This document shows, one piece after another, positions 15,559 through 63,203 of a stretch of DNA of 64,000 nt; the stretch's first letter is position 1; every line of letters begins with the position of its first letter. The translations under genes were made by a program, and so were the position numbers. Source of the stretch: Tenggerimyces flavus (GTDB lineage Bacteria; Actinomycetota; Actinomycetes; Propionibacteriales; Actinopolymorphaceae). The stretch is from contig NZ_JAFBCM010000001.1 in assembly GCF_016907715.1 (NCBI RefSeq), positions 4,464,001 to 4,528,000 on the forward strand. Direction: 5' to 3'. The notes under the pieces are model-generated. The model was not told where the DNA came from. It searched no databases and saw only the letters and a program-made list of their open reading frames with translations.

Positions 15559-17355
15559 ATGCGCGTACAGACTGCTCGGCTGCTGATCCGCGACCTGCGG
15601 GAGGACGACCGCGAGTCCGTACGGCAGTGGCGGCACGACCCTGACGTCACCCGCTACCTGGACAACCCCACCGGGGCGGACGCCGACCACTGGTTCGACG
15701 CCGCGCTCCGCGCCAACGCGACAAGGCCGCGGCACTCGCACGACTGCGCGATCGTGCTGCTGCGCTCCGGCGAGGTCATCGGCTGGCTGCGGATCGGCAG
15801 CTCGATCGACACCCGGGCGGGGGAGTACGTAGCGTCGTACGCGCTGCGCCCGGAGTACTGGAACCAGGGCTACCTCTCCGAGGCCCTCAAGGCCGCTCTC
15901 GACGTCAGCTTCTCCGAGCTCGGCGCGCTGCGCGTCTACGCCCAGGCGTACCGGGCGAACGGCGCGTCGACGCGCGTGATGGAGAAGGCGGGCATGCGGT
16001 TCGCCGGCGCCGCGCCGTCCGCGGCACCCCTGCTCGGCGACAGCGTCCGGTACGTCGCCGAACGCGACACGAGGCGCCCCGGTTTCCTCACCAGGCTCGG
16101 GCTGCGCGGCGGTCAGCGCAGGCGGGTCGGGCTGGTCGTCGTTCTCGGCCTGGTCCTGCTGCTCGCCGCCCCCGTCGCCGTCAGCGCGACCCTGGACTGG
16201 CTGGACAAACCGACCGCGCCGGAGGACGCCCGGCTGCTGCGCTGGCAGCCGCGCGGCGAGCTCACCGACGACCGCGGGACGGTGAACGAGGCGAGCGACG
16301 CCTGGCGCGCGTACCAGGGCCAACGCCCCGGGCGCGAGATCTACGTCGTGTGGGCCGGGCGGATCGCCGCCGGCCGCCTTGTGCTGCTGCAGTCCGTCGG
16401 GCCCGACGACGTCCCGTACCTCGCGCAGGTCTCCGAGCGCGGCGAGCCGGCCAAGTGGGTCGTCGACCGGGTCGAGCAGCTCGACGAGCAGCCGCTGGGG
16501 ATCGTGGTCAGGTACGACGGCAACCTGAACATGCCGATGACGCAGACCGGCACGGGTGCCTCGCTGGTGCAGCTCCTGCTCGCACCGCCGCACGCGCTGC
16601 GCCACGTCGGGACCCCGCGGCTGCTGCGGCGGACGCGGGAGCGCCCGAACGACCAGCCGAGCTGGGAGCCGCTGGTCGTCGACGACCGGGGGATGAGCAA
16701 AACCTGGCTGCACATCGACCGGCTGTCGCCCGACGGCACGGTGATCGCGATGGTGTGGCCCTCGTCCCGTGGCCGGGACTCCGTCCGTACGATCGCCGCG
16801 TCGCCGGAGGCGCTGCTCACCCGGCAGCCGACGATCCAGCTGGCCGACCCGACGTGGGGGCCGATGACGCCGTTCGACGAGCTCGTGTACGACGACGCCC
16901 GCGCGGCTGGAACGGTGCTCGGGCCGGACCACGTCGAGGGCGATGTCGCCCTGCTCGCGGCGCGGACGACCGACACCCGGACCTCCATCCTCGAGACCCG
17001 CAGGCAAGGCGTGTCGACCGCGGTGCTGGTCGTCTGGGGGCGGAACCGGGTGGAGTGCGTCGGCGACGCCATCTATCCGGACCTGGCGGACCGGTCGTTC
17101 GTCGCCATCGGCTGTGCGGACGCGACGCTGGACAAGACGATCCTGGCGGTGGTGGCGAAGCCGGGGACGGCGCGGTTCCAGGTGTCGGACGGGCGGGGTC
17201 GGCGGGTCGTGGAGTCGGCCGCCGCGCAGCCGCAGGTGCTGGTGATCGGGCCGGGGGCGCCGACGTACCAGCCGTACCTGGTGACCGCGTACGACGCGAA
17301 GGGTGTCGCGATCGACCGGGACACGATCGAGATGAACGGGACGTTGCCGCGGTAG
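15559..17355 (+). CDS. GNAT acetyltransferase fused to membrane segment and extracytoplasmic domain
   Basis: 598 residues in three parts. Residues 1-172 are a GNAT acetyltransferase of the RimJ type (TARLLIRDLREDDRESV, YALRPEYWNQGYLSEALKA, NGASTRVMEKAGMRF). Residues about 187-208 are one hydrophobic membrane-spanning segment (VGLVVVLGLVLLLAAPVAVS) after an arginine-rich cytoplasmic stretch. The remaining 390 residues, predicted outside the cell, contain no motif I recognise; they are rich in beta-type strands. The ATG is chosen because GGGAGG lies 7 bp upstream. The reading frame is continuous across the junction with steady high-GC codon use, so the fusion looks real. The acetylation substrate is unknown. 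Confidence 0.8.
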   Translation: MRVQTARLLIRDLREDDRESVRQWRHDPDVTRYLDNPTGADADHWFDAALRANATRPRHSHDCAIVLLRSGEVIGWLRIGSSIDTRAGEYVASYALRPEYWNQGYLSEALKAALDVSFSELGALRVYAQAYRANGASTRVMEKAGMRFAGAAPSAAPLLGDSVRYVAERDTRRPGFLTRLGLRGGQRRRVGLVVVLGLVLLLAAPVAVSATLDWLDKPTAPEDARLLRWQPRGELTDDRGTVNEASDAWRAYQGQRPGREIYVVWAGRIAAGRLVLLQSVGPDDVPYLAQVSERGEPAKWVVDRVEQLDEQPLGIVVRYDGNLNMPMTQTGTGASLVQLLLAPPHALRHVGTPRLLRRTRERPNDQPSWEPLVVDDRGMSKTWLHIDRLSPDGTVIAMVWPSSRGRDSVRTIAASPEALLTRQPTIQLADPTWGPMTPFDELVYDDARAAGTVLGPDHVEGDVALLAARTTDTRTSILETRRQGVSTAVLVVWGRNRVECVGDAIYPDLADRSFVAIGCADATLDKTILAVVAKPGTARFQVSDGRGRRVVESAAAQPQVLVIGPGAPTYQPYLVTAYDAKGVAIDRDTIEMNGTLPR

Positions 17356-57841: not shown

Positions 57842-58762
57842 CTAGACGGTCAGCCGATCAAGGGCGTAGACCGGCCTGCTCGGCCAAGGAACTCCCTTGC
57901 CATGCAGGCGAAACTTAACCCTGCTGTGCCCGTTGCGGGTCTGCGCGACACCTTCGCTCAGCTGCTGGTAGGTGAGCGGACGGGAGATCCCGGGGAGAAA
58001 GACCGTCCATTCGCCGAGAGTGACAGCCAGGGATCGCAGCTCGTCGGGCTGCTCGACCAGCAGCATCCTTCGTTTGTTAGGCGGAGCATCGGGGTCGCGC
58101 AGCATGTTCGTAGGAAGAATGCGCTCGTCGGACCGCATAAGCTGGTCCCTGATTGGCTGCATCACGTCACGCAGGACGTAGCTCCATCCCAGCGCGGCGA
58201 ACGCCACCAGGTATGCCGATCTCACCCATGACAGCCGGACGTGCACCTCCTCGAAGTGCATGTCGGTGGTGATCACGACGCTCGGGTTCGGAGTACCTCG
58301 TTCAACGAAAGCGTCGAGAGTTCGGAGGTGTTCAGCCTGCTCCATCGGGTTGTTCCGCTGGGGCACGCCGAAGATCTCCAGGCCCCGGTCTGACCATCGT
58401 GCTTCGCCGCGAAGCGGCACGCCATCAGCATGGATCGTGACCGAAACCATGGCGCTCGCCATGCCACGAGCGAAGTCGACCACCTCCCGCTGACGCGCTG
58501 CCTGTGCATCGATCTTGGAGCCGGCGGAGTTGTTGCAGTCGCAGCAGGTCAGCAGCAAGCCGCGTCCGTCAAGGCTCTTCGGCGGCACGTGCTCCTCGGT
58601 CAGCTCACCGTCGATCGCCGCTTGACGCGTGAAGACGCGAAGGCACAAGGGGCAGGCGTTGCAATCCTCGTCAGCTGAAAGGCTGCCATCGAGGCCAAGC
58701 CGGAAAGCGACTAGCCGCAGCATCGGCGCGCTGTCATCGAACCACCGCAACCGCTTGTTCAT
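57842..58762 (-). CDS. HNH endonuclease-like protein
   Basis: 306 residues. Residues 37-78 form a zinc-bound HNH module: CPLC (37-40), EEHVPPKSL with His58, and CCDCNN (73-78), followed by a Ser-Lys. The remaining 220 residues are alpha/beta with no recognised motif and may recognise the target. Two tRNA-like genes lie directly upstream on the same strand (84 bp), so the three are probably co-transcribed. HNH nucleases occur in defence systems, homing elements and restriction; which applies here is unknown. It converges on uvrB with a 1-bp gap. Confidence 0.72.
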   Translation of the reverse strand: MNKRLRWFDDSAPMLRLVAFRLGLDGSLSADEDCNACPLCLRVFTRQAAIDGELTEEHVPPKSLDGRGLLLTCCDCNNSAGSKIDAQAARQREVVDFARGMASAMVSVTIHADGVPLRGEARWSDRGLEIFGVPQRNNPMEQAEHLRTLDAFVERGTPNPSVVITTDMHFEEVHVRLSWVRSAYLVAFAALGWSYVLRDVMQPIRDQLMRSDERILPTNMLRDPDAPPNKRRMLLVEQPDELRSLAVTLGEWTVFLPGISRPLTYQQLSEGVAQTRNGHSRVKFRLHGKGVPWPSRPVYALDRLTV

Positions 58763-58845
58763 GGATCGACGTTCTTTGTCCTGACACTCGCCGTCACCTC
58801 CCTTCCAGGTAGGAAGAATCTCACCTTGAACCGGCAGTGGCTGCG

Positions 58846-58918
58846 TGCCCCCGGCAGGATTTGAACCTGCAACGTGCAGCACCTCATGCTGCCGCCTCTT
58901 CCGTTGGGCTACGGGGGC
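58846..58918 (-). tRNA. tRNA-like gene, class I body with GAG anticodon
   Basis: 73 nt folding as a full cloverleaf: acceptor GCCCCCG/CGGGGGC with discriminator A, D-arm with GG in the loop, anticodon stem GCAGC/GCTGC with loop ATGAGGT (anticodon GAG), a 5-base variable loop, and T-arm GCAGG-TTCAAAT-CCTGC. GAG would read leucine CUC/CUU codons, but leucine tRNAs normally have a long variable arm, which is absent. It may be a non-canonical or mobile-element tRNA. Amino-acid identity is uncertain. CCA is not encoded. Confidence 0.7.
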
Positions 58919-58922
58919 GTCG

Positions 58923-58996
58923 TGCGGCTCCCGGGATTCGAACCCGGATCATCCAGTTCCTGGGACTGGCCTCTCTACCGATTGGAGTAGAGCCGC
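58923..58996 (-). tRNA. tRNA-like gene, class I body, probable CAG anticodon
   Basis: 74 nt: acceptor GCGGCTC/GAGCCGC with discriminator A, D-arm with GG in its loop, anticodon stem CCAGT/ACTGG with loop CCCAGGA, a 5-base variable loop, and T-arm CCGGG-TTCGAAT-CCCGG. By position the anticodon is CAG (leucine CUG), but base 33 is C rather than the near-universal T and the variable loop is short. Only 4 bp separate it from the second tRNA-like gene, so both come from one transcript. Confidence 0.65.
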
Positions 58997-59139
58997 AGAC
59001 GAAGCGGCGTCACTCGCGGCGGGAGGGCTGGTCAGGCGCGCGGTCGACCGGCCCGGGCGAGGGACGCCTCGGGCAGTCGGTCGAGTCGGATGGCCATGCC
59101 CGCAAGTGTTTCAGTGCGTACGGGCCGGCCGCCAGCGGT

Positions 59140-59883
59140 TTACGGGGTGAGCAGCTCGGCGATGATCTCGCCGCGCAGGGATTGGAGGTCCGGGCGGCCG
59201 GGCTCCCACGTACAGGCGATGTGGAGGCCTTCGACGCGGCCGGTGGCCAGGATGGTGCGGACCGCCGAGACCAGCGTGGCCACGGAGGGTCCGCCCGGCG
59301 CCACGTAACGGGCACCGGGGAGGGCTGAGGGGGCGAGCACGTCGAGGTCGACGTTCACCAGGAGCTGCCCCTCCGGTAGCGACGAGGGGAGCGATGAGAG
59401 CGGCACGCGGCGGACGGCCGACGAGGCGAGGAACTCCACCTCCGGCGGGTCGAGGTCGCGGGCGTCCACCAGCAGCACCCGGTCCGAAGCGAACGGAGCG
59501 ACCCCGAGCCGGTCGAGCACGGCCTCGCGCCGGTAGCCGAGGAGGAGGCGCAACGCCGTTCCGCCGACGTAGCCCGACGCACTCGTCTCCAACGTCTGCA
59601 CGTCGCCGTGCGCGTCGATCCAGACCACCGACGGATCGAGCCCCGCGCGCAGCATGCCGGCTGCCATGGCGAGCGTCACCGTGCAGTCGCCCGACACCAC
59701 AGGCGTCTCCGGCGAGGCGGCAACGGCACCCGCCACTGCCGAGTACAACGGCACCAATCGGGCGAAGACGTCGCCCGCGGGCAGCTCCACCGTGATCTCG
59801 GTCACGTCCGCCCCGGCCGGCAACGGGACCGCCAGGTCGGGATGGTGCTGGTCCAGGTGGTACGGGACGTAAGTGAGCTGCAC
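59140..59883 (-). CDS. Ureohydrolase (arginase/agmatinase) family protein
   Basis: 247 residues, shorter than typical arginases (about 300). Family motifs are SGDCTVTLAMAAG (in place of GGDHS), WIDAHGDVQT and VNVDLDVLAPS. The metal-ligand His of the first motif is Cys, a replacement also found in other actinobacterial members of the family. It may hydrolyse a guanidino compound, or the altered metal site may reflect another activity. GTG 59883 starts the conserved N-terminus (QLTYVPYHLDQHHPDL). It diverges from typA with 46 bp between. Confidence 0.78.
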   Translation of the reverse strand: MQLTYVPYHLDQHHPDLAVPLPAGADVTEITVELPAGDVFARLVPLYSAVAGAVAASPETPVVSGDCTVTLAMAAGMLRAGLDPSVVWIDAHGDVQTLETSASGYVGGTALRLLLGYRREAVLDRLGVAPFASDRVLLVDARDLDPPEVEFLASSAVRRVPLSSLPSSLPEGQLLVNVDLDVLAPSALPGARYVAPGGPSVATLVSAVRTILATGRVEGLHIACTWEPGRPDLQSLRGEIIAELLTP

Positions 59884-61808: not shown

Positions 61809-63203
61809 CTACCCGAGCAGGATCTCGTCGGGCCGGCGATACGTGATGGCGATGTCGTAGTCGGCGATGACAGACGCGAGGAGTGCGTCGAGATCGTCGT
61901 CGTAGTCGGCAGCTGCCATCTGATGGACCTGCTCGGCGAGGGTCTTGCCGTCCACGAGGACGAGCGGGTACTGGTCGTCTATCACCTCGACCTGTGCCTG
62001 CCGGCTGAACGTTCCGGTCGTCACGAAGACGCCGATCCATCCACGCCGTAGCCGCGCCACAACACGAGCGACCTGATCGGGTCCGATCGAGGAGGTGGGT
62101 TTCACACACTTGGCTTGGCCTAGCACAACGAGAGGCGTGTTGTTGGCGGCAGTACCGACGTCGAGCCGACCGACGAAGTCCACTCCGCCGTCGCCGCCCG
62201 GCCGAGTGAGCCAGCCGTCCCGATACCGCGCACCAGAGCGACCGAGGATCTGCGCGCTGACCCTCGCGGCGAGCAGTTCGAAGGCGTGTTTGCGTCCGTC
62301 GAAGAAGGTGTAGAGCCGTTGCAGGACGCTCTCCTCGTCGGACCCCACGGTGGGAAGCTGGTCGGTTGTGGAGCGAACACGAGAGGACAGAACGCGCCGG
62401 CGCATGCGGGGAATGGCCGCGCGGCCGTCCCTGACCCATCGCATCCAGGACTCTGGTGCGTGGCGTGCCGCCTGCTCGGCATCAAGCGTGGGATCACGCC
62501 GATCGTCGATCCAGCGCATGTCCAGAGCGTCACCGGTCGCGGTGAGATCGATGACGGCCAGATCCAGTACCAGATTGGGAAAGCTGCGTCCTGTCCCCGG
62601 GTCGCGCTGCACCACATGCTCGAGCCGTTCGATGATGGCTGCTCCGCAGAACTCGACGTGTCCCTTGACCAGGATCTGTCTGTCGCGGACCACGGAGACG
62701 GAACGGTAGATCAGAAGCGGCGGAGCTTGAAGGCGCTCGGCTGGCGCAGTGGCGGCATGGAGTGCCCAGGCGTCGAGCAGCGCTCGGTTCCCGGTAGTCG
62801 CACCAGGGAGTCCAACGGTGGTGGGCTTGTGGTCGCCGTAGTAGCGGACGTGCCCATGGTCGAGATCGAACTCGTCGTGCCACGGGTTTGAAGCCTGGCC
62901 AGCGTTCCATGGACTTGATCGCAGACTGATCACGGGTCGGCGTTGACGATCTGGCGCCGCCACCGGGGCCGCAAGGTTGATCCCAGCCATGAGCATCAGC
63001 TTGGGTACGTCACTGTTCTCGGGTGGGCTCGTGACGAAGTGGTAGTTGAGGTACCCGTCGAGCTCGATCACGACCCGATTGGACTTGGTCGCATAGCGCA
63101 GGACCTCGAGCACCGAAACCTGCCGGTCATGGCTCACGCGTACATGATCCAGTATCCGAGCGGTCGGATCAGGAGAATTCGACCTTCCTCCACCGTCGCT
63201 CAT
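61809..63203 (-). CDS. Type IV restriction endonuclease, AspBHI/Mrr-like
   Basis: 464 residues. The C-terminal catalytic domain has the Mrr-type PD-(D/E)xK core: GGDGGVDFVG with Asp342, then LGQAK (Gln363, Lys365). The N-terminal half (SSPWNAGQASNPWHDEFDLD, HVRYYGDHKP) resembles the AspBHI recognition domain, which binds modified cytosine. AspBHI-type enzymes cut DNA containing 5-methylcytosine and thus block modified foreign DNA. No methyltransferase gene is adjacent, as expected. It converges on typA with a 13-bp gap. The ATG start is the first in frame. Confidence 0.82.
   Translation of the reverse strand: MSDGGGRSNSPDPTARILDHVRVSHDRQVSVLEVLRYATKSNRVVIELDGYLNYHFVTSPPENSDVPKLMLMAGINLAAPVAAPDRQRRPVISLRSSPWNAGQASNPWHDEFDLDHGHVRYYGDHKPTTVGLPGATTGNRALLDAWALHAATAPAERLQAPPLLIYRSVSVVRDRQILVKGHVEFCGAAIIERLEHVVQRDPGTGRSFPNLVLDLAVIDLTATGDALDMRWIDDRRDPTLDAEQAARHAPESWMRWVRDGRAAIPRMRRRVLSSRVRSTTDQLPTVGSDEESVLQRLYTFFDGRKHAFELLAARVSAQILGRSGARYRDGWLTRPGGDGGVDFVGRLDVGTAANNTPLVVLGQAKCVKPTSSIGPDQVARVVARLRRGWIGVFVTTGTFSRQAQVEVIDDQYPLVLVDGKTLAEQVHQMAAADYDDDLDALLASVIADYDIAITYRRPDEILLG

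Follow-up and report, generated by a model that had tools for sequence, protein, structure and literature searches.

The window, a stretch of 64,000 nucleotides (positions 4,464,001-4,528,000 of the 8.52-Mb single-contig source genome, G000), carries two adjacent tRNA genes with leucine anticodons and short variable loops (Table 1). We consider it likely that they belong, as two isoacceptors, to a naturally occurring family of leucine tRNAs which lack the long variable arm, and that they represent accessory leucine tRNAs, probably from a mobile set. The fold of the pair, its identity bases, its likeness to this family and its redundancy with long-arm GAG and CAG tRNAs are direct observations; its leucine identity, as judged from the sequences, is well supported. 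The short-arm leucine tRNA family is a grouping made in this analysis, for which 380 distinct tRNAs were parsed, the window pair counted.

Table 1 Features of the window discussed in the text, with positions counted from its first letter.
Feature	Position	Strand	Properties
Canonical long-arm tRNA-Leu CAA	7379..7462	-	ARAGORN and Rfam; three leucine tRNAs of this type in the genome
HNH-like protein, 306 aa	57842..58762	-	directly downstream of the pair; Pfam HNH_5 25.0 bits, under the 27.5 cut-off
Short-variable-arm tRNA-Leu, predicted	58846..58918	-	anticodon GAG; T33, G37, A73; 5-nt variable loop; CCA not encoded
Short-variable-arm tRNA-Leu, predicted	58923..58996	-	anticodon CAG; C33, G37, A73; 5-nt variable loop; CCA not encoded

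Sequence and fold of the tRNA pair

Both genes were called by ARAGORN as well as by Rfam (RF00005, 53.9 bits for GAG and 53.3 bits for CAG at a gathering score of 29), on the minus strand, a detail which the preliminary description had left out. In agreement with the preliminary description, they form two tandem cloverleafs 4 bp apart (spacer 58919-58922, transcription order CAG, then GAG), the anticodons read GAG and CAG in the parsed genes, and all stems are intact: acceptor GCCCCCG/CGGGGGC, GCAGC/GCTGC and GCAGG/CCTGC with a 3-bp D stem GCC/GGC in the GAG gene, and acceptor GCGGCTC/GAGCCGC, CCAGT/ACTGG and CCGGG/CCCGG with a 3-bp D stem CTC/GAG in the CAG gene. The same description had also correctly given the discriminator A of both genes, the loss of T33 from the second one and the absence of a long variable arm. 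The variable loops are ACGTT (GAG) and ATGAT (CAG), and thus neither gene has the variable arm of at least 10 nt by which class II tRNAs were recognized; the anticodon loops are ATGAGGT and CCCAGGA, respectively. The folding energies correspond to z = -2.86 (GAG) and -2.17 (CAG), with 3 and 6 of 200 shuffles being as stable or better.

Both genes share the traits by which the short-arm family was delimited, namely a leucine anticodon, a 3-bp D stem with C13.A22, a variable loop of 4-7 nt, A15-U48 and A73. The D-arm motif GCCCAA...AGGC is present in the GAG gene, the CAG gene having CTCCAA...AGAG (paired) at this place; the motif is absent from 46 of the 380 different short leucine tRNAs that were parsed with the window pair among them. 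The idea that the D arm of the CAG gene is decaying was considered and dropped, as parsing gave the pairs C10-G25, U11-A24 and C12-G23, the first two of which are double changes with respect to the family's usual G10-C25 and C11-G24. Around the pair (58600-59300) no sigma-70-like promoter and no terminator were found.

Leucine identity features

The preliminary description had assumed that leucine tRNAs require the long variable arm, which is indeed given as a rule for cytosolic tRNA-Leu in excerpts of PMC7609411, PMC8450103 and PMC9976931. The excerpted text of PMC9976931 nevertheless describes leucylation by the E. coli enzyme without the arm: A73 is crucial in E. coli tRNA-Leu, the anticodon and the long variable arm being dispensable, A15-U48, G18G19 and A20a are essential for LeuRS, and variants without anticodon arm and variable arm are still active. 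For the E. coli enzyme, the assumed requirement does not hold.

Six features (U8:A14, A15-U48, G18G19, A20a, A73 and an unpaired 13.22) were scored for the distinct tRNAs of all loci fetched, and both window genes carry all six. The complete set was found in 347 of 386 short leucine tRNAs, many of them gathered by a pattern which fixes bases 13-15 and 22 and leaves 8, 48, 18-19, 20a and 73 free, and in 34 of 45 long ones (381/431 together), compared with 13 of 1,621 tRNAs of other isotypes. The CAG window gene lies outside that collection pattern (no match). This result argues against the earlier suggestion that the pair is charged by another synthetase with a different amino acid. In the first parse, which allowed variable loops of up to 12 nt, 47 leucine tRNAs failed; the second parse left 40 tRNAs unparsed, 3 of them leucine.

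When the 13.22 mismatch was dropped, the remaining five features were found in 352 short and 36 long leucine tRNAs and in 94 of the 1,621 non-leucine tRNAs (28 of these 94 Lys, 16 Ala). With 94 instead of 13 non-leucine tRNAs, the mismatch evidently carries much of the specificity of the set; since so many other tRNAs share them, A73, A15-U48, G18G19, A20a and U8:A14, all present in the pair, are not proof of leucine identity alone. Among the 48 parsed tRNAs of the source genome the six-feature set occurs only in leucine tRNAs: the window pair, L028, L032, L033 and the CAA tRNA. Its tRNA-Ala(UGC) and three tRNA-Lys have the other five features without the 13.22 mismatch, and its own UAA leucine tRNA lacks A20a.

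Leucine tRNA set and codon usage

All 48 RF00005 matches of the source genome were typed by ARAGORN. The comparison with the genome's own tRNA-Leu set, as proposed at the outset, yielded seven leucine tRNAs, three with a long arm (CAG, L032; GAG, L033; CAA, in the window) and four with short variable loops (UAG, L028; UAA, L030; the window GAG and CAG). The pair is redundant in that its anticodons are also borne by L032 and L033. As the typing was complete and gave no long-arm UAA or UAG tRNA, the short-arm forms are the only UUA and CUA readers of this genome. ARAGORN further reported a tRNA-Val(AAC) of 99 nt at 16286-16384 of the window (plus strand), which Rfam did not match and which, being called by ARAGORN alone, was treated as probably false. 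For comparison, G024, a one-contig genome of the same order whose whole set was typed (46 RF00005 matches), has long-arm CAA, UAG, CAG and GAG leucine tRNAs together with a short-arm UAA tRNA, the only UAA tRNA it contains.

In the uvrB alignment of 30 chosen genomes, TTA fell in columns with at least 80% leucine 14 out of 14 times (11 distinct columns), these sites coming from seven genomes which all match the short-arm UAA pattern and are known by pattern alone. CTA fell in such columns 44 out of 49 times; the CTA of the source genome's uvrB lies in a mixed column, and in the same genome CTA encodes residue 220 of TypA and residue 394 of PolA, two positions at which homologues of solved structure have leucine. 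The LeuRS1 alignment of 30 genomes contained too few UUA sites, both TTA and four of the seven CTA codons being located in a badly conserved upstream stretch and three of the seven CTA in leucine columns. The codon result for the short-arm UAA tRNA provides indirect support for leucine charging of short-arm leucine tRNAs as far as can be read from alignments. CTG and CTC sites were mostly in leucine columns in both alignments. CUG and CUC are the commonest leucine codons in uvrB of the 30 genomes (55 and 30 per 1000), and it is at these codons that the pair would compete.

Distribution in Actinomycetota

The preliminary description knew of no described type to match the pair; short-arm leucine tRNAs do exist in Actinomycetota, phages and tRNA arrays. 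In a search with a D-arm and anticodon pattern, 117 of the 147 order genomes gave a match (15 with the reversed control). A stricter pattern with fixed variable-loop length was present in 83 of the 298 phylum genomes, its control remaining without a match; the search patterns fixed bases 13-15 and 22 and required T33. A long-arm UAA/UAG pattern, for which the counts per genome were complete, was found in 127 of the same 147 order genomes; the order-wide short- and long-arm numbers are pattern matches, with variable loops inspected singly in a minority of genomes. A search of related genomes for the same pair, likewise suggested earlier, covered 57 genomes and yielded no second tandem locus that matched both genes and had these anticodons.

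Outside family f3, the short-arm UAG pattern was present in 17 of 109 order genomes (two scans compared by hand). Sixteen of these were devoid of a long-arm UAG match; the 17th is the source genome, whose single long-arm match is not a tRNA, since Rfam gave no match there. Four other genomes outside f3 showed neither a short-arm nor a long-arm UAG match. The relatives G001-G007 have short-arm UAA and long-arm UAG matches, and as they keep the long-arm UAG tRNA, that of the source genome appears to have been replaced by the short-arm form. The UAA tRNAs of G001-G007 (L069-L074, L076) have a somewhat longer variable loop with genes of 78-82 nt, as if between the two forms. Within f3, at least two long-arm matches were found in 37 of 38 genomes; the short-arm UAG/CAG tRNAs of this family seem to be extra copies, and those fetched are located in small tRNA islands.

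Short-arm leucine tRNAs in arrays and phages

The scan of named genomes for short-arm GAG/CAG tRNAs gave at least 118 stretches, 80 of which were taken as loci; like the viral scan, it gives presence and not frequency. Among the matches listed, the match lay inside an ARAGORN tRNA at 66 of the 80 loci, the other 14 being left out of the array counts. Further tRNAs were found at 61 of these 66 loci and none at 5; in total, 41 loci hold four or more tRNAs and 16 ten or more, with a maximum of 34, again among the matches listed, which include arrays of Asanoa, Frankia, Plantactinospora and a Myxococcales MAG. Of the leucine tRNAs at the 66 loci, which were chosen for short GAG/CAG, 105 of 106 among the matches listed are short by gene length (82 nt), including 19 of 19 with CAA, UAA or UAG. 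Among the matches listed, Lentzea, Micromonospora sicca and Actinosynnema have short CAG and GAG genes in a tandem arrangement comparable to that of the window pair.

In viral contigs the match was inside an ARAGORN tRNA at 80 of 80 loci among the matches listed. With the same length limit, the short to long ratios of the leucine tRNAs at these viral loci, among the matches listed, were 46:5 for UAA, 29:6 for UAG, 22:5 for CAA, 4:2 for CAG, 4:1 for AAG and 5:6 for GAG, and the serine tRNAs listed there were all long (36/36).

Among the matches listed, the window GAG tRNA is most closely related to a GAG tRNA of Micromonospora sicca that has a short CAG tRNA next to it, and the window CAG tRNA to the UAG/CAG tRNA of the f3 islands, which has an identical acceptor stem. 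C33, which could weaken decoding by the CAG gene, was found in 22 short leucine tRNAs out of 380; 19 of these belong to the 58 short GAG tRNAs. Among the short CAG tRNAs it is restricted to the window gene (n = 100 distinct, 94 of which were gathered by a pattern requiring T33). C33 was also seen in the fetched array (L166-L245) and phage (L284-L363) tRNAs with some G34 anticodons, i.e. in Val-GAC (10/20), Gly-GCC (13/44), Ala-GGC (7/19) and short Leu-GAG (19/58), counts which are biased because the loci were chosen for short-arm leucine tRNAs, mostly by the pattern requiring T33.

With chances that we put slightly below even, the cytosolic arm-less leucine tRNAs may constitute a coherent natural family of phages and arrays which has repeatedly displaced long-arm UAA/UAG tRNAs in Actinomycetota chromosomes, whereby arm loss may be an escape from enzymes recognizing class II leucine tRNAs and the pair a recent landing in a genome already converted for UAA/UAG. 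Given that no published description was found, this wider short-arm pattern is of more interest than the pair itself: in the two bacterial genomes that were typed completely, UUA is read by a short-arm tRNA alone, as is CUA in one of them. It would then be a mistake of annotation rules to flag short-arm leucine tRNAs as suspect, and arm-independent leucylation, which is known from laboratory constructs and mitochondria, could be tested in nature. A preference of phages and arrays for leucine tRNAs devoid of the arm, if it exists, points to enzymes which recognize the arm.

Probable origin, possible role and genomic neighbourhood of the pair

The two genes would be transcribed together from the minus strand and their tRNAs completed with CCA by the CCA-adding enzyme. 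Leucine would then be charged by the genome's LeuRS via A73 and the A15-U48/G18G19/A20a hinge. From the anticodons, the GAG tRNA is expected to read CUC/CUU and the CAG tRNA CUG, presumably as leucine. The pair probably derives from a phage-type tRNA set or a mobile tRNA array, and its probable role is that of a reserve of leucine tRNAs, of advantage where the standard leucine tRNAs have been cut or become limiting.

A more specific purpose, compatible with the accessory leucine tRNAs preferred here, would be that of spares or decoys against tRNA-cutting defences, for which a missing arm and C33 would make poor targets, so that translation survives. Loop changes are predicted to let phage tRNAs escape anticodon nucleases (excerpt of PMC10264068), array units are regarded as putative antidefence systems (excerpt of PMC12803027), C33 is frequent in the G34 tRNAs mentioned above and a methyl-directed restriction enzyme is encoded nearby. 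We infer that the missing arm or C33 might serve nuclease evasion. However, this analysis identified neither a nuclease that singles out long-arm leucine tRNAs nor a nuclease cleavage site to go with C33, the C33 counts carry the selection bias already described, and the window CAG gene has C34 and not G34; we regard this purpose as possible but doubtful. The restriction enzyme is a strong match to a methyl-directed Type II enzyme at 61809-63203 of the window (minus strand; PADLOC mREase_II, 621.7 bits), about 2.8 kb from the pair.

Alternatively, the pair might be a remnant of a larger mobile tRNA array, being silent or in the process of losing its function, the CAG gene earlier than the GAG gene. 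CoaE and UvrB remain together in both G001 and G002. Neither a tRNA nor an HNH gene was found in the uvrB regions fetched from these two relatives and from G017; TypA and the other genes on the far side of the pair could not be located in these regions either, so that only one flank can be compared with the relatives. The absence of a tRNA near uvrB in three relatives would fit relics, as would anticodons redundant with L032 and L033, C33 together with the unusual D arm of the CAG gene, and the lack of a promoter-like site at 58600-59300. On the other hand, all stems are intact, the CAG D stem has changed by two paired double changes, and C33 is present in a total of 22 among the 380 short leucine tRNAs (19 with GAG), which makes relics unlikely. 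The earlier proposal of decaying mobile-element tRNAs hence survives in its mobile part, as the nearest relatives are array or island tRNAs and no tRNA was found beside uvrB in the three relatives, and is weakened in its decay part by the intact stems and the paired D-stem changes. Conservation of the pair near uvrB was rejected, on the evidence of the three relatives and of the 57 genomes with no second tandem match.

Homologues of the HNH-like gene are rare, being present in 2 plasmid records out of 72,556 and, with the source genome counted, in 4 out of 296 genomes of the class. No tRNA was found beside the homologues in four other loci (L501, L503-L505), and none of the phage records or viral contigs searched yielded a homologue. 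A general link of this gene to tRNAs is therefore unsupported.

The source genome has two adjacent leucyl-tRNA synthetase genes (G000:C1:6269160-6274029; L109, L110, L114). LeuRS1 has the editing domain, and LeuRS2 (716 aa) is without a PF13603 match, its best PDB relative being 3ziu (637 aa). A second LeuRS devoid of editing could alter charging, and its position beside LeuRS1 together with the missing editing domain might suggest that LeuRS2 forms a private pair with short-arm tRNAs and charges them, possibly with leucine-like amino acids. The distribution makes this very improbable and does not support LeuRS2 as the cause of short-arm tRNAs: all six g3 relatives have a matched LeuRS2-like gene but a short-arm match only with UAA, and short-arm matches also occur in genomes with no matched gene of this kind, namely in G001 and in the majority of the other relatives. 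Finally, it is hardly credible that another synthetase charges the pair and inserts a different amino acid at CUN codons, which only the non-standard body and C33 might suggest, as none of the tools gave any indication of another amino acid, both genes carry all six leucine features, CTG and CTC sites are mostly in leucine columns of uvrB and LeuRS1 (identity bases and codon columns being the grounds on which an altered code was rejected), and mass mistranslation at the commonest leucine codons would presumably be costly.

Relation to known tRNAs

In the literature searched, outside of which most subscription-journal papers fell, no description of short-arm cytosolic bacterial tRNA-Leu as a class was found, and the excerpts of PMC11555353 and PMC12482277 contain nothing on the leucine variable arm. 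With class II tRNA-Leu, represented by L032, L033 and the CAA tRNA of this genome, the pair has in common the leucine anticodons, A73, A15-U48, G18G19, A20a and the 13.22 mismatch; the long variable arm is present there and missing here. Human mitochondrial tRNA-Leu(UUR) is recognized by LeuRS without a long arm, essentially via A73 and A14 (excerpt of PMC9976931), but it is organellar with a partly unfolded anticodon branch, whereas the pair is cytosolic, bacterial and has full stems. The truncated E. coli tRNA-Leu variants (Larkin 2002, ref. 53 in the excerpted PMC9976931) are leucylated without the variable arm as well; they are laboratory constructs in which the anticodon arm is also missing, whereas the pair is natural and complete.

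The tRNA array units of mycobacteria, plasmids and phages, as described in excerpts of PMC5966550 and PMC12803027, likewise consist of accessory tRNAs redundant with chromosomal anticodons, which like the pair differ in D, anticodon and variable arms and have an HNH gene nearby, HNH endonucleases being the most widespread gene of array units (excerpt of PMC5966550). In contrast to these units, defined in the excerpted wording of PMC5966550 by at least 20 clustered tRNA genes, only two genes are present at the site, and the HNH-like gene is a candidate and not an established array endonuclease. The allo-tRNAs (Mukai 2017, via an excerpt of PMC7609411) are also non-standard bacterial tRNAs, some with leucine anticodons, but they have 8/4 or 9/3 structures, whereas both genes of the pair have the standard 7-bp acceptor and 5-bp T stem. 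One further published tRNA with a leucine anticodon on a short-arm body is close to a Met tRNA with changed anticodon, whereas the pair has leucine-type identity bases.
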